Source: Candidatus Omnitrophota bacterium (GTDB taxonomy: Bacteria; Omnitrophota; Gorgyraeia; JABMRJ01). Taken from it: DNA of 35,771 nt. Within the stretch, counting starts at the first letter, position 1, and every line of letters starts with the position of its first letter. The DNA lies in assembly GCA_016783555.1 (NCBI GenBank), contig JADHWH010000016.1, positions 1 through 35,771 of the forward strand, read 5' to 3'. Positions 2,601-32,588 of the stretch are shown here, in pieces. A program made the translations under genes and the position numbers. The notes below the pieces were generated by a model. It did not search any database. It was given only the letters and a program-made list of their open reading frames with translations, and had not been told where the DNA came from.

Positions 2601-3221
2601 TTATACTAAGCGCTTCTTTCTCCTTAAAAATGCTCCAAATGCCAGCCCTGAGCCGAATAATAGTGTTGTCACCGGCTCTGGTATAACATCTCCTCCATTA
2701 GTGTGATCACCGGTCAATTTAAAATCATCCAGGTGGACATAGTCTTTTGAAGTGCCACAAGAATTATTATAGAGAGAAAATTTTACATCTACCGAGCTAT
2801 TGTTGGCCGATGAGGGCAACACCCAATTCTTAAACTCCCAGCTGCTGCCATAGTTGAGCGTCTCAAGAATATTCCAGGCGGGATCCCCTGTCTTTCTCCA
2901 TGCCATCGTAAAGATATCACCGCTGCTGTCCCCAAAACTCTCTGGCCTCCGATATACTGAAAAACCTATATTATTATAGCCTACGGTCGATATCGACCTC
3001 CATATTGACGCAACTATCTTTGGATTCGCCTTTAACGTAGCTGCCGGGTCGCCGCTTGGCGCAGGACTGCTTTCATTATTATTGGTAAAAACTTCGCCTT
3101 CCGTGCCCCAGCCGGATATCGCGTTGAACTCGTCAAGGAATATGGTAACCGACGCCTCGGCCTGTGTTGCATATAGGGCCGCGAATAGAATAATTGACGC
3201 ACACATAACCTTTCTTAACAC
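2601..3221 (-). CDS. PEP-CTERM sorting-domain protein, paralogue 1
   Basis: 206 residues from GTG 3221, with GGGAG 7 bases upstream. The signal peptide covers about residues 1-23 (cleavage near QAEA-S). The body is beta-rich and contains one domain of about 150 residues with no motif I can name. The C-terminus is a standard PEP-CTERM signal: IPEPVTT, a hydrophobic span (LLFGSGLAFGAFL) and RRKKR. Exosortase is expected to cut near PEP after secretion and transfer the protein to an unknown acceptor. It is a tandem paralogue of the gene at 3263-3886; 83 bases coding the sorting region (2647-2729) differ from the copy at 3309-3391 at a single base. It is probably co-transcribed with that gene from the sigma-54 promoter at 3974-3956. 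It ends 5 bases from the convergent plus-strand gene. Confidence 0.9.
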   Translation of the reverse strand: MLRKVMCASIILFAALYATQAEASVTIFLDEFNAISGWGTEGEVFTNNNESSPAPSGDPAATLKANPKIVASIWRSISTVGYNNIGFSVYRRPESFGDSSGDIFTMAWRKTGDPAWNILETLNYGSSWEFKNWVLPSSANNSSVDVKFSLYNNSCGTSKDYVHLDDFKLTGDHTNGGDVIPEPVTTLLFGSGLAFGAFLRRKKRLV

Positions 3222-3262: not shown

Positions 3263-3886
3263 CTAGACTATGGTTTTCTTTCTCCTCAGATATCCCGCGA
3301 ATATAAGACCTGAGCCGAATAATAGTGTTGTCACCGGCTCTGGTATAACATCTCCCCCATTAGTGTGATCACCGGTCAATTTAAAATCATCTATATAGGC
3401 ATAATCTTTTGAGGAGTGACAGCCATCGTCGCCATTATATAGAGAGAATTTTACATCTACCGAACCATTGCTGGCCGCTGACGGTAATACCCAATTCTTA
3501 TACTGCCAGGAACTATTATAGTCGAGCGTCTCAAGAATATTCCAGGCGGTCTCTCCTGTCTTTTTCCATGCTATAGTAAAAAGATCGTTGTTGTCATCCC
3601 CCAAGCTCTTCGTCTTTCGATACAGAGATAAACCTATATTATTATAGCCGGCTGTCGATATCGTCCTCCACATGGATGAAGTTGCTTCATTGTATGACTT
3701 CAATTTAGCCACATCGTCGCCGCTTGGGGCCGGGCTGCTTTGGTCATCAGCTGAAACATTGCCCTGTGTAGACCAGCCGGATATTGTGTTGAACTCGTCA
3801 AGGAATATGGTAACCGACGCCTCGGCCTGGGCTGCATATAAGCACGCAAACACAAAAATTGACACACAGATTAACTTTCTTAACAT
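3263..3886 (-). CDS. PEP-CTERM sorting-domain protein, paralogue 2
   Basis: 207 residues from ATG 3886 with a strong AGGAGGGG 8 bases upstream. The signal peptide is at about 1-23 (MLRKLICVSIFVFACLYAAQ). The extracellular domain shares its order of motifs with the downstream paralogue (SVTIFLDEFNTISGW near the N-terminus, TGETAWNILETLDY, DVKFSLYN, DDFKLTGDHTNGGD). The sorting tail is IPEPVTT, then LLFGSGLIFAGYL and RRKK. It is the first gene after the sigma-54 promoter, with a leader of about 60 bases. The function of the domain is unknown; by family it is an exported protein that is processed by exosortase and accompanies EPS. Confidence 0.9.
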   Translation of the reverse strand: MLRKLICVSIFVFACLYAAQAEASVTIFLDEFNTISGWSTQGNVSADDQSSPAPSGDDVAKLKSYNEATSSMWRTISTAGYNNIGLSLYRKTKSLGDDNNDLFTIAWKKTGETAWNILETLDYNSSWQYKNWVLPSAASNGSVDVKFSLYNGDDGCHSSKDYAYIDDFKLTGDHTNGGDVIPEPVTTLLFGSGLIFAGYLRRKKTIV

Positions 3887-5205: not shown

Positions 5206-6576
5206 CTAACCCTGCGAGATTAGATTGTACTTACGCAATTTATTATAAAGTGTCGTCCTGTTTATGCCCAGTTTCTTAGCGGCCTTCTTCTTATTCCAAC
5301 CAACCTCCTTCAAGATTCTAAGTATATGGCCCTTCTCCGGCTCTCTTAAGATATCCTTCAATAAATTTAAAGCGCTTGCGGAGACATTCGCCATGGTCTT
5401 ACTTATGAGTATCTCGGGAAGATCGTCTTTATTTATCACGCCGTCTGTATCCAATATGACGGCGCGTTCTATAATATTCTCAAGCTCCCTTATATTGCCG
5501 GGCCAATGGTAGTTCTTAAGGACTTCGATGACGCCTCCGTCCATGCCCTTTAACTTCTTATGGTTCTCTTTAGAGTATAGATTTACAAAATGCTCCAAAA
5601 GAGACGGCAGGTCTTCTTTTCTCTCTCTTAAGGGCGGCAGGACAATCGATATAACATTGAGCCTGTAGTAAAGGTCTTCCCTGAACTTTTTTTCGCTAAC
5701 GAGCTTCTCTAAGTCCTGGTTCGTCGCCGCTACAATGCGCGCGTCTACCTTTACGGTTCTATGATCCCCCACCCTCTCAAACTCTTTCTGCTGGATTATC
5801 CTTAAAAGCTTCACCTGCAGATCAGGCGTCAGCGAGTCGATATCATCAAGCAGTATAGTGCCTCCGTGCGCCAGCTCGAACCGCCCCTTCCTGTCGGCTA
5901 TGGCGCCCGTAAAAGCGCCTTTGGTATGGCCGAATAGTTCGCTCTCCACAATATCCCGCGGAAGCGCCCCGCAGGAGACCTCCACAAAAGGCTTGTTGCA
6001 CCTCTTCTTATCCGCCTTATGTATGGAATGGGCCAGGAGCCTCTTTCCCGTTCCGCTCTCTCCCCGTATCAATATGGTCGTCTTCGCGTTTGCTATGCGT
6101 TCAACGACCGAATAAATCTCGTTTAACTTGTCGCTCTTTCCTATAATACCGTGGAATGAATCATCGCTCTTTTTAGAAAGCTTCTTAAAAGGACCGCCAT
6201 GCGTCTTCTTCCGCGGCAGGTTCAGAAGCGCCCTCTCTATAACGGAGATGATCTTTTCGTCCTCAACGGGCCTTACAAGATAATCAAAGGCCCCGAGCTT
6301 TATGGACCTTACCGCAAAATCAAGGTTCCCGTAAGAAGTGAGTATAATAACCTCGCCCGAGTCCAGCTTATCTTTTAAGTCCTTTACAAGCTCAACATCA
6401 TCCTCTTTGTTTAAATCTGTAAGGACAATCTGGTAGGGTTTTTCAGATATGCATTCCAAGGCTTCTTCTGTCTCGCTGGCTATATCTACCTTGTAACCCG
6501 CGCGGCAGAGTATTTCGTAAAGGGATTTCTGTACAAGCAGCTCAAAGTTTACCAGTAGAATCTGTGAACCATCCAT
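5206..6576 (-). CDS. NtrC-family sigma-54 activator with a degenerate receiver
   Basis: 456 residues from ATG 6576. An open frame reaches back to TTG 6600, but AAGGAG (6592-6587) lies inside that extension 10 bases before the ATG, so 6576 is the better start. Order of domains: receiver (1-120), AAA+ sigma-54 interaction domain (about 143-370) and Fis-type HTH (about 415-452). Visible motifs are Walker A GESGTGK (172-178), GAFTGA (220-225) which contacts sigma-54, and Walker B ILLDDID (241-247). The receiver keeps Asp54 and Thr80, but the Mg-binding acidic pair is Asn10-Phe11 and the conserved Lys is Arg102. The family remodels the sigma-54 holoenzyme by ATP hydrolysis. Exosortase loci often carry the PrsR response regulator; this protein may fill that role. 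Candidate targets are the promoters at 3974 and 10567. It has its own promoter and an attenuator-like leader. Confidence 0.93.
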   Translation of the reverse strand: MDGSQILLVNFELLVQKSLYEILCRAGYKVDIASETEEALECISEKPYQIVLTDLNKEDDVELVKDLKDKLDSGEVIILTSYGNLDFAVRSIKLGAFDYLVRPVEDEKIISVIERALLNLPRKKTHGGPFKKLSKKSDDSFHGIIGKSDKLNEIYSVVERIANAKTTILIRGESGTGKRLLAHSIHKADKKRCNKPFVEVSCGALPRDIVESELFGHTKGAFTGAIADRKGRFELAHGGTILLDDIDSLTPDLQVKLLRIIQQKEFERVGDHRTVKVDARIVAATNQDLEKLVSEKKFREDLYYRLNVISIVLPPLRERKEDLPSLLEHFVNLYSKENHKKLKGMDGGVIEVLKNYHWPGNIRELENIIERAVILDTDGVINKDDLPEILISKTMANVSASALNLLKDILREPEKGHILRILKEVGWNKKKAAKKLGINRTTLYNKLRKYNLISQG

Positions 6577-6711: not shown

Positions 6712-7047
6712 TTATTCAATCTCTTCCTGTGTAATCCTGGCAAATTCTGTCTCCATCTTTTTGGCGTATCTGTTCAGCTGGCATAGGAGCGAGGAGAGTT
6801 TTCTTATGCCTGACTTCGATTCCAGCAAAAACTGCCTGTGCTGAGAATCCTCCTCAACATGCTGCAGCGACAAATTTATAAAGCGGTTTACGGCGTCCAG
6901 CGGGTCATAAAGCCTGTTTAAGATAGTCATAGACAACCTGCCCATAGAGGCAAACCGGCTATACTTACCTGCCGACCCCCTGGGCCGGCTATTCTTAAAA
7001 CCCTTCTTTCTCTTTTTGTTATTGCGTGGTCTGCTGTTTGGCTTCAT
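6712..7047 (-). CDS. Free-standing HisKA-like (DHp) protein lacking the phosphoacceptor histidine
   Basis: 111 residues, soluble. The first 30 residues are very basic (RPRNNKKRKKG) and could bind nucleic acid or phosphates. Residues 32-98 read like the dimerisation helices of a histidine kinase: ASMGRLSMTILNRLYDPLD corresponds to the usual SxGxxxxxIAHEINNPLD. The histidine position is Asn44 and the next acidic residue is Arg45. NRFINLSL and LLESKSGIRKLSSLL match the remainder of the hairpin. There is no ATP-binding domain here or nearby. By position it may be a phosphorylation-independent partner of the NtrC-type protein just downstream (inference). It overlaps the TPR gene by 29 bases, so the pair is probably translationally linked. 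An internal ATG at codon 35 is a less likely start because it would remove the beginning of the domain. Confidence 0.65.
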   Translation of the reverse strand: MKPNSRPRNNKKRKKGFKNSRPRGSAGKYSRFASMGRLSMTILNRLYDPLDAVNRFINLSLQHVEEDSQHRQFLLESKSGIRKLSSLLCQLNRYAKKMETEFARITQEEIE

Positions 7048-7891
7048 TTGCTCTCTTTATCTTGTTGTGTAATAACTTCTTAAATTCGGCGTCCTCGGTA
7101 TTTTTTATTAAATACTCATATATCTTTACGGCCTTGTCTGCGTCCTTCAGCTTCTTTACAAATATCAGCTCTATAAGGGGTATCTGCTGCGCCTGTACCA
7201 GCGGCGTAGGATAGTCGTATATATTGGCCTCCACGATACTGCCGGCCTCTTCATACTTTTCTGTTTCTATGTATGAGCGTATAAGGTAGGTTGAGGAACT
7301 ATATCCGAGCATTGTGCCTCTGTTCTCTTCGCACAATCTCTTATAAAGGGCTATCGCGTCTTCGTATTTCTTTAGGGTCTCCGCCATATTGCCGTAACCC
7401 TTGCACCGCTGGGCTATATAGAGCGCTGACTGAAGGCCTATGGGTGTATGGTGATATTCATCCCGCAGGATCTCATACTCTTTTACCGCGTTATGCCATT
7501 CTCCCTTCTTCTCATATGCCATGCCCTTTAAAAAGTAGGCCTTGCTCAAAAGCGATACCCCGCTAGCCTCATGCTCCGACAAAAAAGCACCAATAATCGC
7601 TACGGCATCCTCGTATCTTTTTTCCGTGATGTAGAATTCCGCGAGCGCCATATATGAATGTCTTGCGAGCTCCGAATCCGGGTGCCCCCGCATTATCTTC
7701 TGCAAATCGCGCTCCACGGAGACGGACATAGCAGGAGGGGTGGCATCAGGGTTTTTCATTATCTCGCTATGTGTACTCTTTGCCCGGTAAAATAACTTCT
7801 CCGCCATATAATCCTTATCCGTAAAGAGGAAGAAGAGAACGAGGAAAGATATCAATATAGCCGATGCGAGATAAAGCGCAAATCGTTTCAT
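7019..7891 (-). CDS. Membrane-anchored TPR protein, copy 1
   Basis: 290 residues. One N-terminal membrane anchor (about 5-24) is followed by a short linker and helical repeats from about 60 on. TPR-like units are visible at SELARHSYMALAEFYITEKRYEDAVAI, SKAYFLKGMAYEKKGEWHNAVKEY and MLGYSSSTYLIRSYIETEKYEEAGSI. The repeats are probably periplasmic and serve as a protein-protein scaffold. The gene starts 2 bases after the stop of the membrane protein at 7894-8784. The same membrane-then-TPR order recurs at 12526-10809 with clear sequence similarity, so the two genes appear to be a functional module. No specific function can be assigned. Confidence 0.8.
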   Translation of the reverse strand: MKRFALYLASAILISFLVLFFLFTDKDYMAEKLFYRAKSTHSEIMKNPDATPPAMSVSVERDLQKIMRGHPDSELARHSYMALAEFYITEKRYEDAVAIIGAFLSEHEASGVSLLSKAYFLKGMAYEKKGEWHNAVKEYEILRDEYHHTPIGLQSALYIAQRCKGYGNMAETLKKYEDAIALYKRLCEENRGTMLGYSSSTYLIRSYIETEKYEEAGSIVEANIYDYPTPLVQAQQIPLIELIFVKKLKDADKAVKIYEYLIKNTEDAEFKKLLHNKIKRANEAKQQTTQ

Positions 7892-7893
7892 CC

Positions 7894-8784
7894 TTAACTA
7901 TCCTTCTTTGTTGTCTTTAATAAAAACTCTGTCGCGCATATAACCACAAAACAATCTACAAACATAGATACTATTATGCCGGCGGCGGTTATTATGAGTA
8001 TGACCTCCGGGAATACCAGCTTGGCCAGCCTGGCCGAATTGGCCTTCATGATAAAGACAGGCAGGTATACCAGATACGGCACAATTATAAGCGGAAATAT
8101 ATAGGAAAAATTGCGCAGGCCCATGGAAACGCTCTTAACAATCGCCTTCCACAACGTACCTCCCCGAATAACTATAATAGGAATAACAAGCAGTAAGAAG
8201 ACATGCAAAACCACAATCGTCAAAAATAGCGCCATCGGCATAAAGAAAGTCGTGGCGGCAGGCACTGTCCCGGGAACCGCCTCCGGCAGGCGGCTCGCAA
8301 GCAGCTTATAAAATAGAGAGAATACAAATGCATTGCCTCTCTTCGCCAGATAGACAGCCAGAGTGGCTATAACGCCGTATATAAGAAACGTGGTATACCG
8401 CTTGCCGTTATCTCTTATTATATCCCCTGTATCGAAAGATGAGTCTTCTTTAGCGCGCTTAATGATCTCTACACAGACCGCCGTAAGAAAGATGCCCGCT
8501 GTGATATAAATCAGCGTGCTCGCGTAAGCGAAGAGCTTCGGTAGCAGGATGAGCTCCGCCGGATAGTGAGTAAATCCGGCCCCGAAGAACTTCCTGATGA
8601 GGGGATCAGCGATAAATGAAAGCGGCCTCCTTGAAGAAAAGTAGAGCAATTCAAGGAATAGCCCCTGTATAAGGGCGAGGACCAAAAAAGGCATTAAGAC
8701 AATAGGTCTTGCGGCAAGAAGCTCAAGCGCCGCAGACCAGTTTGACTTAAGGCCGAATCTGGGTTCTTTATTGATAGATATCAT
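7894..8784 (-). CDS. Polytopic inner-membrane protein, copy 1
   Basis: 296 residues with about six hydrophobic spans (roughly 28-50, 88-112, 131-150, 182-208, 228-252 and 260-285). The most conserved part against the paralogue at 11663-12526 is DPLIRKFFGAGFTHYPAELI, followed by a span, where the other copy has NPLIKKFFGEVFLHYPANLF. No catalytic motif is seen. It resembles the general class of six-span envelope proteins of unknown function. It is the first gene of a short operon (membrane protein, TPR, HisKA-like) behind the promoter at 8885-8857. The ATG at 8784 has an AT-rich upstream region with no obvious Shine-Dalgarno sequence. Confidence 0.8.
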   Translation of the reverse strand: MISINKEPRFGLKSNWSAALELLAARPIVLMPFLVLALIQGLFLELLYFSSRRPLSFIADPLIRKFFGAGFTHYPAELILLPKLFAYASTLIYITAGIFLTAVCVEIIKRAKEDSSFDTGDIIRDNGKRYTTFLIYGVIATLAVYLAKRGNAFVFSLFYKLLASRLPEAVPGTVPAATTFFMPMALFLTIVVLHVFLLLVIPIIVIRGGTLWKAIVKSVSMGLRNFSYIFPLIIVPYLVYLPVFIMKANSARLAKLVFPEVILIITAAGIIVSMFVDCFVVICATEFLLKTTKKDS

Positions 8785-8997: not shown

Positions 8998-9660
8998 CTA
9001 AACCTTAAACTTCTTGACCATCCTGCCGGCAAAACCGATCAGGCCTATGCCCAAAAGCAGCATGCTGGATGGTTCCGGGATAGTCGTGTTCCATCCGCTA
9101 TCCGGCACCAAATCCTCTGCGGCAATCGCTCCGTTATCCATCTTCGTCCATGTCTGAAAGCCTCCCACAGGAAAGCTTGAGAACATGCTGGCCGGGATAA
9201 ACCACTCTATCACAGACCCCATTGCCCATTGCGGAGTACCCGCTACAGGGTTTCCTGCCCCATCGAGGACAGTAAGAGTATTTACTCCACCCACCTTCTT
9301 GAAGAATATCTCCCTGTCATTACCATCGATTATACCGTTCATGTTGATATCGATTAATGTCTGGTAAAACGGAGTGGTGGATCCCGCCTCAGGATAATTA
9401 CCGAGAGTCGGGGTACCAAAGAGGTCGATACCTATGTAAAGACCGTCATTGGCGTCACCGTTATTCTCAAGTATCATACCGAGCTTAAAGATATCATAGT
9501 TGTCGTTAAGGCCGGCTTCGTTAGGATCGGTCGCCGATATTATAAGGCTAGTCCACTCTCCGGTATCCGCGCCGTCAATATTGGCCGTCGTGATAGCGAA
9601 CGCGTTTCCAGCTAACAATATGGCTGACACAACCATCGCCATTAAATACAATTTCTTCAA
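8998..9660 (-). CDS. PEP-CTERM sorting-domain protein with a calcium-loop-like motif
   Basis: 220 residues, started at TTG 9660. A GTG at 9669 is in frame, but it overlaps the AAGGAGG Shine-Dalgarno sequence itself; that sequence sits 8 bases before the TTG, so TTG is the likely start. The signal peptide is about 20 residues (AMVVSAILLAGNAFA-ITTA). The body is a secreted beta-rich domain with DINMNGIIDGNDREIF near the middle, which looks like an EF-hand or dockerin-type calcium loop. The tail is IPEPSSM, a hydrophobic span (LLLGIGLIGFAG) and RMVKKFKV. It lies 40 bases downstream of the sugar transferase and is probably expressed with it from the sigma-54 promoter at 10567-10551. It is unrelated in its body to the PEP-CTERM pair at 2601-3886. 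Confidence 0.88.
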   Translation of the reverse strand: MKKLYLMAMVVSAILLAGNAFAITTANIDGADTGEWTSLIISATDPNEAGLNDNYDIFKLGMILENNGDANDGLYIGIDLFGTPTLGNYPEAGSTTPFYQTLIDINMNGIIDGNDREIFFKKVGGVNTLTVLDGAGNPVAGTPQWAMGSVIEWFIPASMFSSFPVGGFQTWTKMDNGAIAAEDLVPDSGWNTTIPEPSSMLLLGIGLIGFAGRMVKKFKV

Positions 9661-9700
9661 ATTATTCACCTCCTTCCATTATATATTTTATTCATCAAAA

Positions 9701-10522
9701 CTATCTTGCGCCCTTGCCCATAGCCGCTACGACTATGGTCCTTAAGAGTATGCGCAAGTCTACCATAAGGCACATCTTCCTTATATATAAGAGATCGTAT
9801 TTGATCTTCTTTTTGACATCCTCGATCGTCTCGTCATACTTATGCCATACCTGGGCCAGGCCGGTAATGCCCGGCTTTACATCAAGCCTTTTACTATAAT
9901 CTTTGATATCCTCGCTGAGCCTTTCCGCGAAAACAGGCCTCTCGGGCCTCGGGCCCACAATACTCATCTCTCCTTTTAGCACGTTGATTAACTGAGGGAG
10001 CTCGTCAATATGGAGCCTGCGTATGATCTTCCCGAATTTAATCAGCCGCGGGTCGTTCTCTTTTGCCCAGACAGGGCCGGTCTCTCTCTCCGCGTCCAGC
10101 TGCATGGTCCTGAGCTTATACATAACAAAGACGTTTCCGCCCCATCCTACTCTCTCCTGCTTAAAAAGCGCCGGTCCCGGAGAGACTATCTTTATAAAAA
10201 CCATGGCAAGGAGAATAACGGGAAACGATATTATAAGGCCGAACGTGCTTACCGCAATGTCAAAAATCCTCTTAAATTCCTGAAATCTCCTCCTCGCGAA
10301 TCTGACTATCCATCCGCACAGGCCCGTAGAGACTATGGCCATGCTGCTTGCCTCTGGGGCATCGATATGGTGCCCTGAATCGCCCTGGGCGTAACAGAAG
10401 CCTATCAGGAATAATACCATCAATACCGTAAAGACAAAGAGCCCCAAAAAGTATGTCGCGCTCTTTATCTCTACTTTTCTTAAACTGTCCTTAATTGTCT
10501 TTTTTATTAATCTCTTCTGCAT
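9701..10522 (-). CDS. Undecaprenyl-phosphate sugar-1-phosphate transferase with an internal PEP-CTERM-like segment
   Basis: 273 residues. The C-terminal 190 residues are a bacterial sugar transferase domain: KRIFDI (84-89) with its membrane helix, YKLRTM (135-140), NDPRLIKFGKIIRRLHIDELPQ starting at 156, GEMSIVGPRPE (184-194) and KPGITGLAQV (216-225). The family moves a sugar-1-phosphate from a UDP-sugar to undecaprenyl phosphate, the first step of repeat-unit synthesis at the inner membrane. The front is unusual: a signal-like span at 22-43 ending CYAQ, then APEASSM (55-61), a span (61-75) and RRRF, which has the layout of a PEP-CTERM tail and shares PE-SSM with the neighbouring PEP-CTERM protein. 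Most short-form sugar transferases have a single front helix. The gene follows a sigma-54 promoter with a short leader of about 19 bases. Confidence 0.92.
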   Translation of the reverse strand: MQKRLIKKTIKDSLRKVEIKSATYFLGLFVFTVLMVLFLIGFCYAQGDSGHHIDAPEASSMAIVSTGLCGWIVRFARRRFQEFKRIFDIAVSTFGLIISFPVILLAMVFIKIVSPGPALFKQERVGWGGNVFVMYKLRTMQLDAERETGPVWAKENDPRLIKFGKIIRRLHIDELPQLINVLKGEMSIVGPRPERPVFAERLSEDIKDYSKRLDVKPGITGLAQVWHKYDETIEDVKKKIKYDLLYIRKMCLMVDLRILLRTIVVAAMGKGAR

Positions 10523-10734: not shown

Positions 10735-10790
10735 AAAAATAGGGACAGGTCCCTCAATTGCAATCTATCGAGGGACCTGTCCCTATTTTT
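10735..10790. terminator. Perfect 21-bp hairpin with A/T-run ends, bidirectional terminator or REP-like element
   Basis: Positions 10735-10755 and 10770-10790 are exact reverse complements around a 14-base loop. Each arm carries a further palindrome (AGGGACAGGTCCCT on the left). Five As start it and five Ts end it, so it can terminate both strands, including the long minus-strand operon that ends at 10809. A third half-copy, GTCCCTATTTT, follows at about 10793-10803, which points to a repeat-family origin. Confidence 0.75.
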
Positions 10791-10808
10791 TTGTCCCTAT
10801 TTTCATTA

Positions 10809-11657
10809 TCACATGTTGTTTATTCTGCTTATAAGGAAATTCTTAAGGGCCTTGTTTTCGGTCTTTGCGATAATATTTTTAAAGATCCTCACCGTCTCAT
10901 GCGGTCTATTGAGCTTCTCGGTAAATACAAGCTCTATACGCGATATCTGCTGCGGCTCAAAATGCGTGGGGTAATTAAGGATCACATTCTTTATAATGCG
11001 CCCTGCGTTTTCGTACTCTTCAAGGAGGATATATGTCATCACAAGGAGATCGGAGGCCATATATCCAATCCAGGTATTCTCGTTTTTTTCTCTTTTATCT
11101 TTGTAAAACCCTACGGCCTTTCTGCATAGTTCCTGCGCCTCCGCTTCGTTTCCGGCATTTTTGTTATACTGCGCGATATAGAGCGGCACTTGAAGCCCGA
11201 GGTATGTATCGCCATAATTATACTGAAGGTATTCCAGCTCCCTAAATGCCTTATCCCATCTCTCTTTTAACTCGTAGCTCTTTGCCTTGATAAAACGCGC
11301 CTTGCTGACCAGGCCCCTATCTTTTTTGTATCTTTTTACAATCTTATCCGAAACCGCTGCCGCGTCGCTGTATCTTTCATTCTGCATGTACATGGCCGCG
11401 AGGCTTATGTGCGCCTGCTTGGCGGACTCGCCGCCGGGGAAGCGCCTTATTATCTCCTTTAATTTACTCTCGACCTGCCTCTGCGTGCCCAGCACGGTCT
11501 CGGTAGGGTTAAGAGGGACGCCTTGATTGACTGTAGTCGCGTCGAAGAGCATCCTCTCGGCCGTAAACTCACTTCCGATATTAAGAAACGAGAGCATCGC
11601 GAATATCGAAAAGAGCGTGACAATACTTAAGAATATTATCTTTCTTGTAGAGTACAT
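10809..11657 (-). CDS. Membrane-anchored TPR protein, copy 2
   Basis: 282 residues from ATG 11657. The frame extends three codons to GTG 11666, but AGAGGGG lies 8 bases before the ATG. One N-terminal anchor (about residues 5-24) and helical repeats follow, including SAKQAHISLAAMYMQNERYSDAAAVSDKIV, SKARFIKAKSYELKERWDKAFREL and a C-terminal YPTHFEPQQISRIELVF segment. The copy at 7019-7891 has the same layout, with YPTPLVQAQQIPLIELIF at the matching place. It is the last gene of the long operon, and the hairpin at 10735-10790 follows. Its role is probably a periplasmic scaffold for the membrane protein encoded just upstream (inference). Confidence 0.8.
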   Translation of the reverse strand: MYSTRKIIFLSIVTLFSIFAMLSFLNIGSEFTAERMLFDATTVNQGVPLNPTETVLGTQRQVESKLKEIIRRFPGGESAKQAHISLAAMYMQNERYSDAAAVSDKIVKRYKKDRGLVSKARFIKAKSYELKERWDKAFRELEYLQYNYGDTYLGLQVPLYIAQYNKNAGNEAEAQELCRKAVGFYKDKREKNENTWIGYMASDLLVMTYILLEEYENAGRIIKNVILNYPTHFEPQQISRIELVFTEKLNRPHETVRIFKNIIAKTENKALKNFLISRINNM

Positions 11658-11662
11658 CTTAA

Positions 11663-12526
11663 TCACCCCTCTTTAGTTAGTCTCTCTTTGTCCAATAAAA
11701 ACCGCGTAATACAAATAGTGGTATAGCACTCAACGAGCTTTATGATGACTATGCCGCCGAGAGTGACGAAAAACACCATCTCTACAAACGTCGCCTCCAT
11801 CAGCTCTTTGTAAAATATCTTTACCAAAAGTACCGGCGAGCATATTAGATACGGCACCAAGAGCAGCGTGAATATCGCAAAGAAGTTTAACAATCCTTTA
11901 AAAGCGCTCTCCCCAAGGGCCTTTATAAACGGCTTCTTCTTGATCACTATTATAGGTATCGTCAATATCAAAAATGCGTAAAAAGCTATGCGCAGTACAA
12001 GAAGCGACAGCGCTGAAATAAAAGGCATCATATCCCACGCTATCTGGGGAAGATGCCTTGAAAAATACCTTAGGACCTTACCAAACCCAAAGGCATGAAG
12101 ATTCCTCACCAGGACACCTACCAGCACTATCAGTATAGCGTAAACGAGACAGGGCCCGTACCTGCGAAGCGCCTCTTCGAGCATACTCCTCGTCTTTAAC
12201 GGCGTTTGAGCGTCTACCTTGCCGACAAGATCAATAGTGACGGCGGATAGAAAGACGCCTATCGCGGCAAATATAAGAAGGTTCGCGTAGTAGTAAAGCG
12301 TGGGCATGATAAAGAGATTCGCGGGGTAATGTAGAAATACCTCGCCGAAAAACTTCTTTATAAGCGGATTGGTGATGTGCATAAAAGGCGTACCCGTCGA
12401 AAAATATATAAATATCAGCGCTAGTATCTCAAGGAAGCCCCAGATGATAAACGGGACCGTAACAAAAGATTTTTTTGTCATCAAGTCGAATGAATCTATC
12501 CAGTTTCTTACGATATTGTATCTCAT
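11663..12526 (-). CDS. Polytopic inner-membrane protein, copy 2
   Basis: 287 residues with about six membrane spans, paralogous to the 7894-8784 protein. The shared signature is NPLIKKFFGEVFLHYPANLF near residue 55, preceded by a span and followed by a span (LLIFAAIGVFLSAVTIDLV). A basic loop (VIKKKPFIKALGESAFKGLLNF) resembles VIRGGTLWKAIVKSVSMGLRNF in the other copy. No enzyme motif is visible. It lies between epsI (3 bases away) and the TPR gene, so it belongs to the exosortase end of the operon. A role in export or anchoring of PEP-CTERM proteins or EPS is possible but unproven. Confidence 0.8.
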   Translation of the reverse strand: MRYNIVRNWIDSFDLMTKKSFVTVPFIIWGFLEILALIFIYFSTGTPFMHITNPLIKKFFGEVFLHYPANLFIMPTLYYYANLLIFAAIGVFLSAVTIDLVGKVDAQTPLKTRSMLEEALRRYGPCLVYAILIVLVGVLVRNLHAFGFGKVLRYFSRHLPQIAWDMMPFISALSLLVLRIAFYAFLILTIPIIVIKKKPFIKALGESAFKGLLNFFAIFTLLLVPYLICSPVLLVKIFYKELMEATFVEMVFFVTLGGIVIIKLVECYTTICITRFLLDKERLTKEG

Positions 12527-12529
12527 GCG

Positions 12530-13174
12530 TTAACCCTTTCTCATATTTTCCATTATCACAATAACCTCTTCCATAAAAGACTTGAGAGTCTCGAGCGTCT
12601 CTTCCTCATTATCCGAAACCCGCGTCGATACCTTGATTGTGGCGCCGCCCTTATTCTTCGCGAAAAGCTGGTTTATGGTAAAGAGCGCCTGCTGGAGATA
12701 GTAATTAAAGGTATAGGTCCTTCCGGTCTTGTAGCAGTAAAGCGAGATATCCCTCGCGCCTTTTTTCTCAAGATATAATTTATTGCATTTAAAGACGCCG
12801 TAAGGCGACTTTATATCCTCGTATATCTTCTCCACCATATTTACACCGCTTCCGATAAGGCAGACTTCCGGGGGATGAAAGACGGATCTGTTTGTCTCGG
12901 AGTATATTATAAAAAGATATATCTTCTCATCCCTGTCGTTTTTGTATTCTCTTACGATTAAATTCCGGGTCTCAAGGATGCGGTATTCGTTTTCCGTGAT
13001 ATCCAGGTCCTCGCCTTCCCAGTCTCTTATCGTGTGCGGGAAATCTTTTATCTCTACCGAATCCACGGCCTCTCTCTGCCTGGAATAGAGCCCAAACGAA
13101 AAGACGCTTGTGATAGACAAAGCGGCGACAACTGCGATGTATCCTACCGTAGACTTATTTACCGATCTCACCAT
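12530..13174 (-). CDS. epsI: EpsI-family exosortase-associated protein
   Basis: 214 residues. One N-terminal membrane anchor (about 11-30) precedes a periplasmic domain of the EpsI type. The family hallmark is seen as FHPPEVCLIGSGV, with His100, Pro101-Pro102 and Cys105, preceded by a conserved entry (FPHTIRDWEGEDL) and followed by SLYCYKTGRTYTFNYYLQQ. EpsI proteins are encoded next to exosortases or fused to their C-termini in EPS loci; their exact reaction is not established. The start ATG 13174 overlaps the end of the exosortase gene by 20 bases, consistent with coupled translation. The order exosortase then EpsI is the classical one. Confidence 0.9.
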   Translation of the reverse strand: MVRSVNKSTVGYIAVVAALSITSVFSFGLYSRQREAVDSVEIKDFPHTIRDWEGEDLDITENEYRILETRNLIVREYKNDRDEKIYLFIIYSETNRSVFHPPEVCLIGSGVNMVEKIYEDIKSPYGVFKCNKLYLEKKGARDISLYCYKTGRTYTFNYYLQQALFTINQLFAKNKGGATIKVSTRVSDNEEETLETLKSFMEEVIVIMENMRKG

Positions 13175-14003
13175 CTTTTATTCCCTTCTCAAGAACCCTG
13201 CTTACCGCGTAAAGGCCCGCAAAGGCGATGCCGAACATCATAAACCCGGAGAAATCATGGAAAAACCCCATAGCGATCTTCTCTCCGTAAAGGTCATTTA
13301 CGGTAGCGAGCATCGTGACCCTTACAATGTTCGTCAGAATCGCTATCGGCACCGATGACATAAAAAGAAGTGTCTTTCTTAAGTAAGAGACCTTTACGGC
13401 AAATGAAAAGAGCGCGCCAAGGGTCAAAAGCGATATAAGCGAACGCAGGCCGCTGCACGGCGCCTCAATGGCTACATGCGAACTGGGCATTATTATGAGA
13501 TTGCCGTCCCTGGCCGAAGGAAAACCTATCCTGTTAAGGACAAACGTCGCCGCCTCGGCCACTATCAGCTTTAGTTTGACGGTGATGTTGCTCACAAGCA
13601 CGAGAGGAAGCGGTATCATAGCCAAGAGAAATAAAAGCGGAAAGACCAGATTGCGCACCATATCTTTTCCGAAGAAGAAGAGCAGCAGTCCGTATAATAC
13701 GAATATAAATGAAAACCCGGATAAAAAGTAGAGTTTTATGGCCGCGCAGACTATATGTATAAAAAGTCCTGCCGCGATAACCGCTAAACCCCTCATATCA
13801 GTCGAAACCCTGGAAGCCTTTATAGCCCCCCTTCTCTGCCACGCGACGAATATCGACACAAACGGTATAAGAAACCCGTGCCCGTAATAAGACTCCGCCG
13901 CGAGCCACCTGTCTACCATCCACTTAAAAGTGGGGATGTAGGCTACGATTAACAACGCGAAACATATCAGAAACTTAAGTATCAGACCCTTGCTTTTTTC
14001 CAT
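13155..14003 (-). CDS. Exosortase (EpsH/Xrt family)
   Basis: 282 residues with about eight membrane spans. The family signatures are complete: YYGHGFLIPFVS near the front (39-50), the active-site block EAPCSGLRSLI with Cys183, NIVRVT with Arg228 and FFHDFSG with His249, which together give the Cys-Arg-His set proposed for transpeptidation. The enzyme is expected to cut PEP-CTERM proteins at the periplasmic face and join them to a still unknown acceptor. Its likely substrates in this window are at 2601, 3263, 8998 and 32325. The subtype cannot be fixed by eye. It sits between the membrane GT2 (overlap 22 bases) and epsI (overlap 20 bases). Confidence 0.95.
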   Translation of the reverse strand: MEKSKGLILKFLICFALLIVAYIPTFKWMVDRWLAAESYYGHGFLIPFVSIFVAWQRRGAIKASRVSTDMRGLAVIAAGLFIHIVCAAIKLYFLSGFSFIFVLYGLLLFFFGKDMVRNLVFPLLFLLAMIPLPLVLVSNITVKLKLIVAEAATFVLNRIGFPSARDGNLIIMPSSHVAIEAPCSGLRSLISLLTLGALFSFAVKVSYLRKTLLFMSSVPIAILTNIVRVTMLATVNDLYGEKIAMGFFHDFSGFMMFGIAFAGLYAVSRVLEKGIKDGEIGK

Positions 14004-19100: not shown

Positions 19101-19301
19101 CTCTCTCTTGCTTTCAAAATCCGATATTATTAAGGGTCTTTTCGCCTTGGGAATATTGGCAATGTATCTTTGCTTAAGCTTCTGCTTTATCTTGACAATA
19201 ATAGGCATGCCCTTCTTTACCACAACAGCGCTGCTGCCTACAAATAGGATGCCGCATATAAAGCCAATCAGCAGTATTACAAGAATCTCTTTTCTTTTCA
19301 T
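16194..19301 (-). CDS. Membrane-anchored YetA/exo-rhamnogalacturonan-lyase-like protein with an N-terminal carbohydrate-binding domain
   Basis: 1035 residues. An N-terminal anchor (5-27) places the rest outside the inner membrane. Residues about 56-207 form a jelly-roll domain of galactose-binding type (ISDFE, VTEGKSSLRLIY, YELLAFDIFNPS, FYLDNLRLLP). From about 235 the chain follows the three-part PcRGLX/YetA plan: a RIFT-barrel part with PFGFGEL and SRWPDKSIKWALID (301-314), a central beta-sandwich, and from about 640 an alpha/alpha toroid (WYGMIDFGDTLSWY, HPEGRWGWFNCE, HMMDIDTCHYN, GSMHRHNGDHWGG). Known members act on rhamnogalacturonan-type uronic-acid glycans. Inside an EPS operon it probably trims or degrades the polymer made here. 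The family assignment is from motif reading. It overlaps the triple-GT gene by 4 bases (ATGA). Confidence 0.78.
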   Translation of the reverse strand: MKRKEILVILLIGFICGILFVGSSAVVVKKGMPIIVKIKQKLKQRYIANIPKAKRPLIISDFESKREIEKWDFKAVEAHLSRDHVTEGKSSLRLIYKPLKGAASARIENYFDKNRRLRNWAQYELLAFDIFNPSNASERMILQIKDIKEYKVKHDIYLKPNRNNTIEIDIRGLWDKINVAKIDQFNLFIWNNESEKEFYLDNLRLLPQASMGKRGIDITKDEFLPKKGEVIYKTGDYFAFDKTKWNKGAPIIINNYLPVQFKDFTFSGGVPFGFGELKNLDNAILLDRAGNEIPFQARVLSRWPDKSIKWALIDMKTTVDATDRPLYWFKYKEETKKRKQNSRLTVKESRSEVIVNTGPMRFIVNKKNFYPFEKIWMDKNRDGKFDRGEIISEKGDMVLVHRGREYFSSLDPNYELKIEEEGPLKISLKAKGWFTSKRGKKFCQFIVRIYAKEGSSSIKMQHTFVYTGYPENKYHYLYKGKRLPKNETIDAIYITTPIDVKGPWQVSFVADDKLMQSDLKKTVDLYQSGSKRYSVKEDNRSVHEGGRMQGWVDISGTNEGVSLGIKNFWQQFPKMFSIDKEARQLITYIWPKEAGELDFKTTQAAEGPNAVARGSAFGIAKTHELFYHFHNGDFSNSDAKDAVITLAADIFVTPHPKWTAATKVLGKVREYDNRIKPAEEFLERIFNWSLRQCDAFDWYGMIDFGDTLSWYRKDGYDKSYSDWGWHPEGRWGWFNCEAVGTHTGALVQFLRTGDYKYFYFGGNLSRHMMDIDTCHYNTVANDRRLKKRIPDDYSRIGSMHRHNGDHWGGRNEEASHTNVYGLALYYYVTGDLRAKDVIEEIGQFFLSEPMTYYGHPDISPQRTIANVFWGDLLLYEITQESRYKKAADKWAELFYIGQKGNGAWAESYNPVKRQWEGKPCKSFMEDYTLPALIAYHQLTGNKAIASCIIDGTDFVIETEGYAAYFDSSAYCYWLTGDTKYLENIRKRLDFTIGHQNRNGDPLWDGMIYQKGYYSRPMEYLYKVPFAFEALAEGGS

Positions 19302-22300
19302 AACAGCCCTTTGCCCAAAATCTCTTCATAGACGTTTTCATGCGTCTTTATCATGCTATCTACCGTAAAACGTGACTTAAATAACTTCTTTGCCCTATTA
19401 CCCATCGCTGTTAATATCTTCTTATCGCTTACAGCCTTTAGTATAGCTCTCCCCAGCGCCTCAGGGGCTTCCGAAGGCACAAGAAAACCCGTCTTGCCGT
19501 TTATAACACACTCTGAATTCCCTCCAACATCAGTCGCTATGACCGGCACGCCCATTGACATTGCCTCCAGTATTGTGAGTGATAAACCTTCTCTCTTTGA
19601 CGGCACAACCAAAATGTCTATCGCGTTTAGAATATTGCCGATGTCACTGCGCACGCCCAGAAATTTAACAGTTCCTGACAGGCCTAGATTATCACGCATG
19701 CGTACAAGGTCTTCTCTTTCCGGACCGTCTCCCACAATTACAGTCTCAACACCGTCTTTTATTTTAGATAATGCCTTCAGAAGATTCTGAAAATTCTTGG
19801 GGGCCGCCAGCCTGCCTACAGCGCCTATCAGAAACGAGTCCATGCTAATCCCAAGGCTGTCTCTTACTTCTTTTCTGGTGTTTGTAATTCTAAGCCTGGA
19901 GGTATCTACCCCGTTGTTACATACGAAACTCATCTTCTCCGGTATGTGGATTTTCTCTTTATAAAACTCTAGCACCTTTTCGGTGACAAATATTGCCTTC
20001 TTGGTAAGTGGAAGAAGCGCTCTGTCAATAAGGAAGTGATATGCCCTCTTCCATTCTTCCGTGCTGTGTTCTGTAATAATTACAAACTTTTTAGACGCGA
20101 AGAAACCTGCCAACCTGCCCCACAGATTGGATGTAAACATATGGGTGTGGATCATATCAAAATCATATCTTCGCATTATGGATATAAGCCGCAAAAGCGC
20201 TAATGGGTCAACCTTTGTTTTTTTGTCAAGGTGCAGAACCGGTATTCCTATACTTGTAAGTTCGCATGAAAGGCTGCCGGGTTTGTTAATACAGCATACA
20301 TAAGGTTCAAAGTGTTTTCTGTTTATGTTTCTGGCAAGATCAATAACAACTCTCTCAGCGCCGCCCGGTTCTAGCGACCATATAAGATAGAGTATTTTTA
20401 TCCGCCTTTCAGCCGCATTTGACTCAAATATATTAACAAGTTTCCCTGCGTTTATGCTTAAATCGAAATTTCTTCTTATATAATCTTTGGCTTGCCTTCC
20501 AAGCCTTTTCCTAATTTCTGTATTTTTGATTAACCTCTCTATTGCCTTATTGAGCGCCTCGGGATTGCGCTCAGGCACAACAAGGCCGGTCTTATTATTT
20601 ACAAGCACTTCCGGAAGACCTGAAACATCTGTCCCGATTACGGGAAGCCCCATCGCCATCGCCTCTAATATCACATTAGGTATACCGTCTCTATCATTAT
20701 TCGCGGCAATAACTGACGGCGCTATGAATATGTCGGCCTCTCTATAAAGCCTCTTTATCTCATCCAGGCCTCTTAACCCCAAAAACTCTATCCTCTCTTC
20801 AAGCGCCAGGCTTCTCACGCGCAGCTTAAGCCTACCCCCGAGAGGACCCTCTCCTACTATGCGCAGTTTAAACTCGTATCCTTTGTTTCTAAGCTTGGCG
20901 CAGGCCTCTATAAGATATTCAAACCCCTTCTGCTCAACCAGCCTCCCTATCACAAGCAGTTCTATATTCCCTCTCCCCCGAAGGGGGAGAGGGATAGGGT
21001 GAGGGGCATTAAACCACTCATCCTCCAACCCATGATAATTCCTATAAATCTTACCGGCGCAACCCTCACCCGCCAACTCCGCCAAATATCTCCTGTTATA
21101 CTCCGTGCACGTCACAACAAATCCGGCCTTTTCAATCTTCTCCTTAAGTCCATATTGTGATACAAATATATCCCACGCGTGTGCAGTAAAACTGAAGGGA
21201 ATACCTGTTAATTTCGAGATGATAACCGCCGAGGTAGTCGGCATTGTGGCCCAGTGGCTGTGTATATGACTTATCTTCTCTTTCTTAATAATCCCCGCGA
21301 AATAGAAACATTCGGATAAAACATATAACGCTTTTAAAAACTCTTTGGGCGCTTTATAATATGTCCTTATTAAATATACAAGAGCTGACAGGACCCTAAA
21401 AGGATTAAATATAAAGCCCAGCCTCCCGTATATAGTTTCTTCCATAAGCTCTTTTGCCTCCGGATGGACAACCTTATCCCTGCACAGCTTTAACGAGAAT
21501 ATCCTAAATTTCATCCCCACATCTTTCATCGCCTTAAACTCCCGCAGTATAAAAGTCTCGTGTGTCTCCGGAAATTGTGAAAGGATAAAGCCGATTTTAG
21601 GGCTTAGAAGTTCGTTGTATAAACTTTTAACCCTGTCAACCATGCTCGTGAAATTGAACTTCTCCTGAACAAGTTTCCTTGCATTACAGCCCATATAAGC
21701 GGCGAGTTCTTTATCCTCAAGCAGTTTTATAATCGCTTCTGCCATCTTATGCGGTGATTTTGGCGTCACCAAATAGCCTGTCTGGCCATCGATGATTGTC
21801 TCTAAATTACCGTCAACAGCTGTCGCCACAACAGGCACCCCTGCAGCCATCGACTCCAGAATCGAATTTGACATCCCCTCTGAATAAGATGCGTTTACCG
21901 AAACGTCCATCAGCGACAGTAATTCCCGCACGTCCTTCCTCTTTCCAAGAAATATAACCCTCTCTTTTAACTGTCGGCTTTGTGACGTTATGGCTTTGTA
22001 AGTTTGAAGTAGCGGTCCATCGCCTATTAATAGGAATTTCACATTCGGAATCTCTTTCAGGATCAACCGCGCTGCTTCTACAAAATCTTTATGTCCTTTT
22101 ATCCAGCTAAAATTAGCCACCATCCCAACTACAGATTCATGCTCTTTTATCCCCATAGACTCTCTAAGAAGCGACTTGTTGACATACAAGCAGGATAATT
22201 TATTCACATCAATTCCGTTATAGATTGTCACTAGCCTATCATCTGAAACCCCTTCTTTTTTCCTGGTAACTTCGCGAACGGCATTGCTCACGCATACAAT

Positions 22301-22720
22301 TTTATCTACCCATCTGTTAGTAATATTATACGCCATTACATGCTGCCATTTACCTTCACGCAACATGCCTGTATCTCGCCTGCTTGTAATATTAACTTTT
22401 ACACCCGCAATCTTGCCGGCAATCGAGCCTAAGATATTTTCGCTAAAAAGCAGACTATGAATTATATCAACCTTGTTTCTCTTGCTTAATCTTACAAGCT
22501 TAAATAATCCTACCAGTCCGCTAATTCCATAAATTCTCCCTATGTTTAGAAAGCGGATATCTATGCCTTTTTCGGCAATCTCATTGAAAAAATCGCCTTT
22601 ATAAAACATACAGCATATAATCGGGCGGTATTTTTCTCTATCTAACGCGCCGACAACGCTCATCAGGTATTGCTGCGCGCCGCCAAAGTCCAATCCGCTT
22701 ATCAAATAGAGAATTTTCAT
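19298..22720 (-). CDS. Triple GT4 glycosyltransferase fusion
   Basis: 1140 residues made of three consecutive GT-B (family 4) enzymes. Domain 1 spans about 1-371 (LDFGGAQQYL, NGIDVNKL, ANFSWIKGHKDF, EGMSNSILES, GQTGYLV). Domain 2 spans about 374-766 (SQFPETHETFILREF, HSHWAT, GRLVEQKGFEYL, DGIPNVILEAMAMGLPVIGTD). Domain 3 spans about 773-1140 (LEPGGAERVVIDLA, HTHMF, NGVDTSRL, EGLSLTILEAMSMG). Each has its own E-x7-E type donor-site motif, so all three may be active, adding three sugars in turn. Domain 2 contains a repeat-derived insert (APHPIPLPLRGRG, 572-584). No frameshift or internal stop is seen, so it is one polypeptide. The gene begins 1 base after the GNAT-type gene. Confidence 0.93.
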   Translation of the reverse strand: MKILYLISGLDFGGAQQYLMSVVGALDREKYRPIICCMFYKGDFFNEIAEKGIDIRFLNIGRIYGISGLVGLFKLVRLSKRNKVDIIHSLLFSENILGSIAGKIAGVKVNITSRRDTGMLREGKWQHVMAYNITNRWVDKIVCVSNAVREVTRKKEGVSDDRLVTIYNGIDVNKLSCLYVNKSLLRESMGIKEHESVVGMVANFSWIKGHKDFVEAARLILKEIPNVKFLLIGDGPLLQTYKAITSQSRQLKERVIFLGKRKDVRELLSLMDVSVNASYSEGMSNSILESMAAGVPVVATAVDGNLETIIDGQTGYLVTPKSPHKMAEAIIKLLEDKELAAYMGCNARKLVQEKFNFTSMVDRVKSLYNELLSPKIGFILSQFPETHETFILREFKAMKDVGMKFRIFSLKLCRDKVVHPEAKELMEETIYGRLGFIFNPFRVLSALVYLIRTYYKAPKEFLKALYVLSECFYFAGIIKKEKISHIHSHWATMPTTSAVIISKLTGIPFSFTAHAWDIFVSQYGLKEKIEKAGFVVTCTEYNRRYLAELAGEGCAGKIYRNYHGLEDEWFNAPHPIPLPLRGRGNIELLVIGRLVEQKGFEYLIEACAKLRNKGYEFKLRIVGEGPLGGRLKLRVRSLALEERIEFLGLRGLDEIKRLYREADIFIAPSVIAANNDRDGIPNVILEAMAMGLPVIGTDVSGLPEVLVNNKTGLVVPERNPEALNKAIERLIKNTEIRKRLGRQAKDYIRRNFDLSINAGKLVNIFESNAAERRIKILYLIWSLEPGGAERVVIDLARNINRKHFEPYVCCINKPGSLSCELTSIGIPVLHLDKKTKVDPLALLRLISIMRRYDFDMIHTHMFTSNLWGRLAGFFASKKFVIITEHSTEEWKRAYHFLIDRALLPLTKKAIFVTEKVLEFYKEKIHIPEKMSFVCNNGVDTSRLRITNTRKEVRDSLGISMDSFLIGAVGRLAAPKNFQNLLKALSKIKDGVETVIVGDGPEREDLVRMRDNLGLSGTVKFLGVRSDIGNILNAIDILVVPSKREGLSLTILEAMSMGVPVIATDVGGNSECVINGKTGFLVPSEAPEALGRAILKAVSDKKILTAMGNRAKKLFKSRFTVDSMIKTHENVYEEILGKGLL
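20969..21006. repeat. CCCTCTCCCCC-GAA-GGGGGAGAGGG palindrome inside the triple GT gene
   Basis: CCCTCTCCCCC (20969-20979) and GGGGGAGAGGG (20983-20993) form a perfect 11-bp stem with a GAA loop, followed by ATAGGGTGAGGGG. This is the form of a repeat seen dispersed in many bacterial genomes. It is translated on the minus strand as PHPIPLPLRGRG. Confidence 0.8.
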
Positions 22721-32324: not shown

Positions 32325-32588
32325 TTATTTCTTCTTCCTTCGCCTTAGTAGCGCGTATGCGGCCAGGCCGCCTCCAAGGAGGGCTACGGTCGTGGGTTCA
32401 GGCGTGTGTGAAGTCTTTATCGGGGGGTCGTCTCCGCCGCCACCGGCGCCTCCGCCACCACCGCCACCGCCGTTACCGCCTCCGCCGCCTCCACCGAAAA
32501 GGCCTGCCATTCCGCCTGAGCCGCTACAGCCAGTCAGTATGAATGTCACGGCTACACAGCATGCGAAGATTAAAAGCTTCTTAATCAT
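32325..32588 (-). CDS. Small Gly-rich lipoprotein with a C-terminal PEP-CTERM signal
   Basis: 87 residues. The N-terminus is a lipoprotein signal peptide with lipobox LTGC and Cys21 as the lipidated residue. Residues 31-52 are almost all glycine. The C-terminus is TPEPTT (62-67), a hydrophobic span VALLGGGLAAYAL (68-80) and RRRKKK, a full PEP-CTERM signal. The protein thus has signals for both lipidation and exosortase processing with only a flexible linker between them. Its start overlaps the kinase gene stop by 4 bases (ATGA), so it is a true operon member between the kinase and Wzx. It may be a minimal exosortase substrate or a carrier on which EPS is anchored (inference). Confidence 0.85.
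   Translation of the reverse strand: MIKKLLIFACCVAVTFILTGCSGSGGMAGLFGGGGGGGNGGGGGGGGAGGGGDDPPIKTSHTPEPTTVALLGGGLAAYALLRRRKKK

Follow-up and report, generated by a model that had tools for sequence, protein, structure and literature searches.

The transferase with a PEP-CTERM-like segment and its locus

The window (the whole 35,771-nucleotide stretch of Candidatus Omnitrophota DNA that was analysed) contains the gene of a sugar transferase with a PEP-CTERM-like segment inside the protein (Table 1). An exosortase and its EpsI-type partner are encoded upstream of this gene in the same orientation, and the gene directly downstream is that of a PEP-CTERM protein. Five PEP-CTERM matches were identified in this genome, all inside the window, and one of the five is the transferase itself.

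Table 1. Features of the transferase and of the genes associated with it in the window.
Feature	Coordinates	Strand	Evidence or remarks
Monotopic phosphoglycosyl transferase with internal PEP-CTERM-like segment	9701..10522	-	273 aa ORF, ATG start; PF02397 and PF07589; 54 distinct homologues
Residues 1-46: signal-like helix preceded by a basic N-terminus, CYAQ at 43-46	10385..10522	-	Sequence
Residues 47-54: 8-residue linker, predicted to be outside and unstructured	10361..10384	-	Model; linker unconserved
Residues 55-80: PEP-CTERM-like segment APEASSMAIVSTGLCGWIVRFARRRF	10283..10360	-	PF07589; columns of 53 homologues; genome match G000:C12:10289-10360
Residues 84-273: Bac_transf catalytic domain, re-entrant helix (P101), Asp173-Glu174 dyad	9704..10273	-	PF02397; PglC/WbaP matches
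Exosortase (PF09721), putative signal reader; Cys183, Arg228 and His249 present	13155..14003	-	
EpsI-type exosortase partner (TIGR02914 / PF11984)	12530..13174	-	
Ordinary C-terminal PEP-CTERM protein, tail IPEPSSM...FAGRMVKKFKV	8998..9669	-	PF07589 E 9e-8
C-terminal PEP-CTERM protein	2601..3221	-	PF07589 above cut-off
C-terminal PEP-CTERM protein, paralogue of 2601..3221	3263..3886	-	PF07589 just below cut-off
87-aa Gly-rich lipoprotein-like PEP-CTERM protein	32325..32588	-	Apparent lipobox LTGC and PEP-CTERM tail

The Bac_transf domain (PF02397) was matched over residues 84-265 of the transferase (E 5.7e-64; 215.4 bits against a cut-off of 27). Judged by this match, the protein is an intact monotopic phosphoglycosyl transferase. 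Since the Asp-Glu dyad (D173, E174) and the re-entrant proline (P101) are invariant in the 54 transferase sequences, the enzyme is predicted to be active. The catalytic domain, the dyad and the re-entrant helix proline are common to PglC (8e37/8g1n), which represents the small form of these enzymes, and to WbaP (8t53), which represents the large form. Unlike the bare PglC form, or WbaP with its helix bundle and DUF, the window transferase has a signal helix, a linker and a PEP-CTERM-like helix ahead of the catalytic domain. The XrtA/PEP-CTERM glycosyltransferase family TIGR03013 (EpsB_2) has a homologous catalytic domain and is also associated with exosortase loci. Identity with that family was rejected, as the 255.9 bits of the window protein fall short of the 393.35-bit cut-off; the protein also lacks the long N-terminal region.

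The N-terminal elements described in the sequence-only reading were all located as claimed, namely a signal-like span ending in CYAQ, then APEASSM, a hydrophobic span and RRRF, ahead of the sugar transferase domain. The first hydrophobic span covers approximately residues 22-42. APEASSM corresponds to residues 55-61, with P56-E57 as its core and an Ala, not a Pro, as the third residue of the motif. The second hydrophobic helix (residues 61-76) is followed by the basic cluster R77-R79, within FARRRF (75-80). The pattern PE-SSM had also been read in the adjacent PEP-CTERM protein, and the tail of that protein does carry it.

PF07589 (PEP-CTERM motif) matched transferase residues 55-78 with an E-value of 0.039 when the whole protein was searched. 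The likeness of the first 85 residues to PEP-CTERM profiles held in part: these residues matched PF07589 with an E-value of 0.0061, whereas the 26-residue segment alone scored 20.5 bits against a cut-off of 20.7, such that the window motif is sub-threshold when taken by itself. In addition, the window segment was not recovered by a stricter profile of 172 local C-terminal PEP-CTERM tails, which indicated that it is a diverged member of its family. The Ala in place of the third Pro (PEA) is common to the window transferase and its homologue L007.

An AlphaFold model of the transferase (mean pLDDT 76.7; 15 sequences) was disordered at residues 46-57 and had a single helix at residues 58-113, which extends from the motif into the catalytic domain and takes in the Arg cluster on the way. 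The modeled linker and long helix agree with the topology that we propose below, although they are not proof of it.

Conservation of the segment among Omnitrophota homologues

A first scan of bacterial and archaeal genomes identified 14 close homologues, all from Omnitrophota. The second search, of 384 Omnitrophota genomes, placed 53 genomes in the group, which was set apart by a gap in score (at least 376 bits versus at most 327 bits). The resulting homologue set comprised 54 distinct sequences, and motif columns were counted over the 53 with the motif. PF07589 matched 48 of the 54 members of the PEP clade (E <= 0.1), and most of the 54 homologues share the consensus APEPSTxALFGSGxxGMIxxFxRRxY.

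The sequence-only reading had turned on whether relatives keep the Pro-Glu residues and the Arg cluster, and they do. Glu was present in 53/53, Pro in 52/53 (the other has Ser) and the third Pro in 49/53, while Leu at +7 and Gly at +11 were almost or fully invariant and Arg at +21 was found in 48 of 51 homologues. The spacing between the motif and the catalytic domain (KRxxD) was 28-29 in all 53. Column entropy was 0.14 bits for the Pro and 0.00 bits for the Glu, and 3.2-3.5 bits in the linker at positions -15 to -5. The Glu codons differed synonymously (GAA in 31, GAG in 22) and those of the Pro varied likewise, which indicated that the protein sequence is what is conserved. As the homologues preserve the motif, its presence in the window is more than chance.

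The hydrophobic N-terminal span was also widespread (52 of the 53 PEP-bearing homologues). By a crude pattern rule, [AVS]xA followed the first helix in 42 of 52 homologues, and the window copy (CYAQ) was among those without it. One homologue, L006, has no first helix; a small ORF and a stop are followed there by MPEPQT without a signal helix. Small ORFs (IDVYLTIRRYARxxKK) were observed directly upstream of the transferase in both L005 (~5805-6000) and L006 (~1900-2002), and PEP-less transferases in L118, L120, L018 and L126 start with what reads like the same RRYxK module.

Specificity of the segment for the transferases

The short PEP-less transferases of the f34 and f36 clades, which come from other exosortase loci in Omnitrophota, resemble the PEP clade in having two N-terminal helices and, often, the same operon type. 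They differ from it in that PF07589 was identified in 0 of 18 of these sister transferases. As a further control, a profile made from C-terminal PEP-CTERM tails only (the 172 tails, from transferase loci) was run on 14,233 ORFs. Internal matches of at least 8 bits numbered 60 in transferase ORFs (some loci being represented twice), and none was identified in any non-transferase protein among the 14,233 ORFs. Chance resemblance was ruled out by these two controls together with the conservation among homologues. An assembly or frame artefact was likewise ruled out, as the same architecture occurs across dozens of separate genomes.

These data bear on the proposal that the segment is part of an ordinary pair of membrane helices, with its Pro-Glu-Arg likeness due to chance or a functionless relic. 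Helix pairs without the Pro-Glu, which the sequence-only reading had regarded as the telling counter-example, do exist in the sister clades, yet these clades branch off separately or to the side, and in the closest relatives the motif is retained. The absence of the motif from f34 and from the homologue L107, and the sub-threshold score of the window copy, also fit an ordinary helix pair. However, the retention of Pro and Glu next to a random linker and variable codons, and the absence of the motif from the sisters and, at 8 bits or more, from internal positions in all other ORFs, make this explanation very improbable.

The PEP-CTERM sorting domain (PF07589 / TIGR02595) and the transferase segment are alike in the order and spacing of motif, helix and basic cluster, and a signal-like N-terminus and an exosortase in the genome are likewise features of both PEP-CTERM proteins and the transferase. 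The segment is unlike the domain in being internal, with ~193 residues of enzyme after the motif. Because its position is not C-terminal, we describe it as an internal PEP-CTERM-like segment and do not call the transferase a PEP-CTERM protein.

The core consensus of the transferase segments is that of the 172 C-terminal tails from the same loci. The transferase segments are set apart from the tails by Ala at -1 together with a basic residue at -4 (44/52 versus 8/172) and another at -2 (39/52 versus 23/172). This [RK]x[RH]A signature is mostly missing in the window's own subclade. The basic residues of the signature are predicted to be outside the membrane, adjoining the motif. As the signature is rare in C-terminal tails, the fate of the transferase segments may differ from that of the tails.

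A role for the motif within the transferase itself, as a helix cap or in substrate access, with the likeness to PEP-CTERM arising by convergence, would account for the fixed spacing to the catalytic domain and for the one long helix predicted between the two. We consider this improbable, if somewhat less so than an ordinary helix pair, because phosphoglycosyl transferases of the same topology work without the motif, the consensus is identical to that of tails from the same loci, and an exosortase adjoins.

In genomes sampled from three other phyla, those of L036 (a Verrucomicrobia locus; 241 genomes), L031 (a Deltaproteobacteria locus; 247 genomes) and L024 (Pyrinomonas; 199 genomes), the best matches included no N-terminally extended form; this search used profile A1 with a strict E-value, which a fusion of separate origin could escape if its catalytic domain were distant. 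Among open-licence papers, we found no report of a sugar transferase with an internal exosortase signal of this kind.

Relationships of the PEP and PEP-less transferases

The PEP transferases formed one clade in the catalytic-domain tree (100/98). This clade includes seven PEP-less f34 sequences and L107, a PEP-less second copy in the genome G358. The simplest reading of the tree is that the motif was lost twice, in f34 and in L107. A PEP clade without f34 was not rejected (p 0.29), based on which f34 may be a sister group rather than a case of loss.

A single clade of all two-helix transferases, with the PEP-less f36 group among them, was likewise not rejected (AU p 0.54). If they are one clade, the motif could have arisen, or been lost, on a second helix that was already there. 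With respect to the sequence-only reading, the exosortase-signal segment itself stood, whereas fusion of a small PEP-CTERM gene to the transferase as the only origin was unsupported, given the p-value of 0.54 for the two-helix clade. Fusion with such a gene, the rise of the motif on a helix already present and its disappearance from side branches are each compatible with these results.

The C-terminal tails at f34 loci are still PEP, which indicated that the exosortase target there is unchanged. In a co-evolution test in f34, the absence of the motif from the transferase therefore does not track a changed signal, and the claim of recognition gained nothing from this test. The absence of the motif from f34 and L107, with the f34-locus tails still PEP, shows that the link to exosortase does not require the motif. 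As f34 lacks the motif, the locus can work without it, and any coupling through the motif would be an addition, not a necessity.

Association with exosortase and proposed role of the segment

An exosortase was identified in 51 of the 53 genomes with the transferase versus 74 of the 331 others (Fisher p 2e-26, uncorrected for shared ancestry). In 50 of 53 cases its gene is no more than 8 kb upstream of the transferase and in the same orientation, at a median distance of 1.8 kb, and in most loci EpsI stands between exosortase and transferase. The recurrent order in homologues was deacetylase, GT2, exosortase, EpsI, transferase, (PEP-CTERM proteins), membrane protein, TPR protein and sigma-54 regulator. 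The claim that an exosortase-type signal stands ahead of the catalytic domain gained strong support from the PF07589 matches (48/54 versus 0/18), the fixed spacing, the conserved Pro-Glu, Leu, Gly and Arg, and the upstream exosortase gene.

In the survey of Haft et al. 2006 (PMC1569441), fewer than 10 residues followed the PEP-CTERM motif in 87% of cases, and the very few long-tailed motifs were more variable in sequence and hence possibly non-functional. Judged from the alignments, the transferase family is a conserved exception to this pattern, and to the view that PEP-CTERM motifs work only at the C-terminus, as its motif is internal yet highly conserved. Annotation rules that demand a terminal position will therefore miss the family.

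We think it probable that the segment is a genuine exosortase recognition segment placed internally, and that the priming enzyme is an exosortase client that is docked and probably also cut. The transferase would be the priming enzyme of an exopolysaccharide locus, moving a sugar-phosphate from a nucleotide sugar to polyprenyl phosphate. The first helix would insert the chain, and signal peptidase would probably remove this helix in most members. Based on the positive-inside rule and on analogy with PEP-CTERM proteins, the Pro-Glu motif would then lie on the outer side of the membrane, which is also the proposed location of the exosortase active site (Haft et al. 2006, PMC1569441). Helix 2 would span the membrane, with the Arg cluster on the inner side and, after it, the catalytic domain at the cytoplasmic face. 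The exosortase encoded upstream would bind the transferase segment as it binds PEP-CTERM tails. Most likely it would also cleave the chain at the motif, so that the short external peptide is trimmed off while helix 2 still holds the enzyme in the membrane. Polysaccharide priming would in this way be linked, spatially or temporally, to protein sorting.

Several observations tell against the transferase being an exosortase client. The window copy is weak (PEA, below the Pfam cut-off and not recovered with the local-tail profile), f34 and L107 lack the motif, and the ~193 residues after the motif are unlike known substrates. In addition, the [RK]x[RH]A signature lies upstream of the motif, L006 is without the first helix, and the co-occurrence with exosortase is uncorrected for ancestry.

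The main rival is docking without cutting, in which the segment, as a pseudosubstrate, would tether the priming enzyme to the exosortase. The distinct [RK]x[RH]A residues and the Ala that replaces the third Pro in both L007 and the window copy are in keeping with it, and since a functional enzyme follows the motif, loss of the linker would have no obvious use. However, the segment agrees with ordinary tails in its core motif, its helix and its Arg cluster, and nothing observed distinguishes binding from cutting. We regard docking alone as possible but unlikely.

More doubtful still is an extension of the client proposal, in which cutting at the internal PEP would switch or time priming, or the polyprenyl-linked sugar of the docked transferase would be the acceptor for PEP-CTERM proteins. 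If that sugar were the acceptor, sorted proteins would join the glycan pathway.

The association of exosortases with exopolysaccharide is based mainly on gene neighbourhood. To our knowledge, the action of exosortase on PEP-CTERM proteins, and what, if anything, they are joined to, is unsettled. A priming enzyme bearing an exosortase signal in dozens of Omnitrophota genera links the two pathways in the manner of a Rosetta stone, and points to a physical coupling of protein sorting with sugar synthesis. The transferase family also offers a small, defined test protein.

Other features of the locus

The tandem PEP-CTERM paralogues in the window end in IPEPVTTLLFGSGL...RRKK. Proteins resembling the 87-residue lipoprotein-like protein were observed in L062, L080, L013, L010, L145, L094 and L056; this lipoprotein-plus-PEP-CTERM family recurs in these loci.

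Two paralogous pairs of membrane-protein and TPR-protein genes (10809-12526 and 7019-8784, both on the minus strand) flank the transferase and its PEP-CTERM neighbour, and most related loci retain one pair of this kind. At ~10740-10800, in the interval that separates the transferase from the TPR gene upstream of it, there is a long inverted repeat (atagggacaggtccctc ... gagggacctgtccctat) that is perfect or nearly so. Further along the window, 19298-22720 (minus strand) encodes a 1140-residue protein that reads as three tandem glycosyltransferase-like units.
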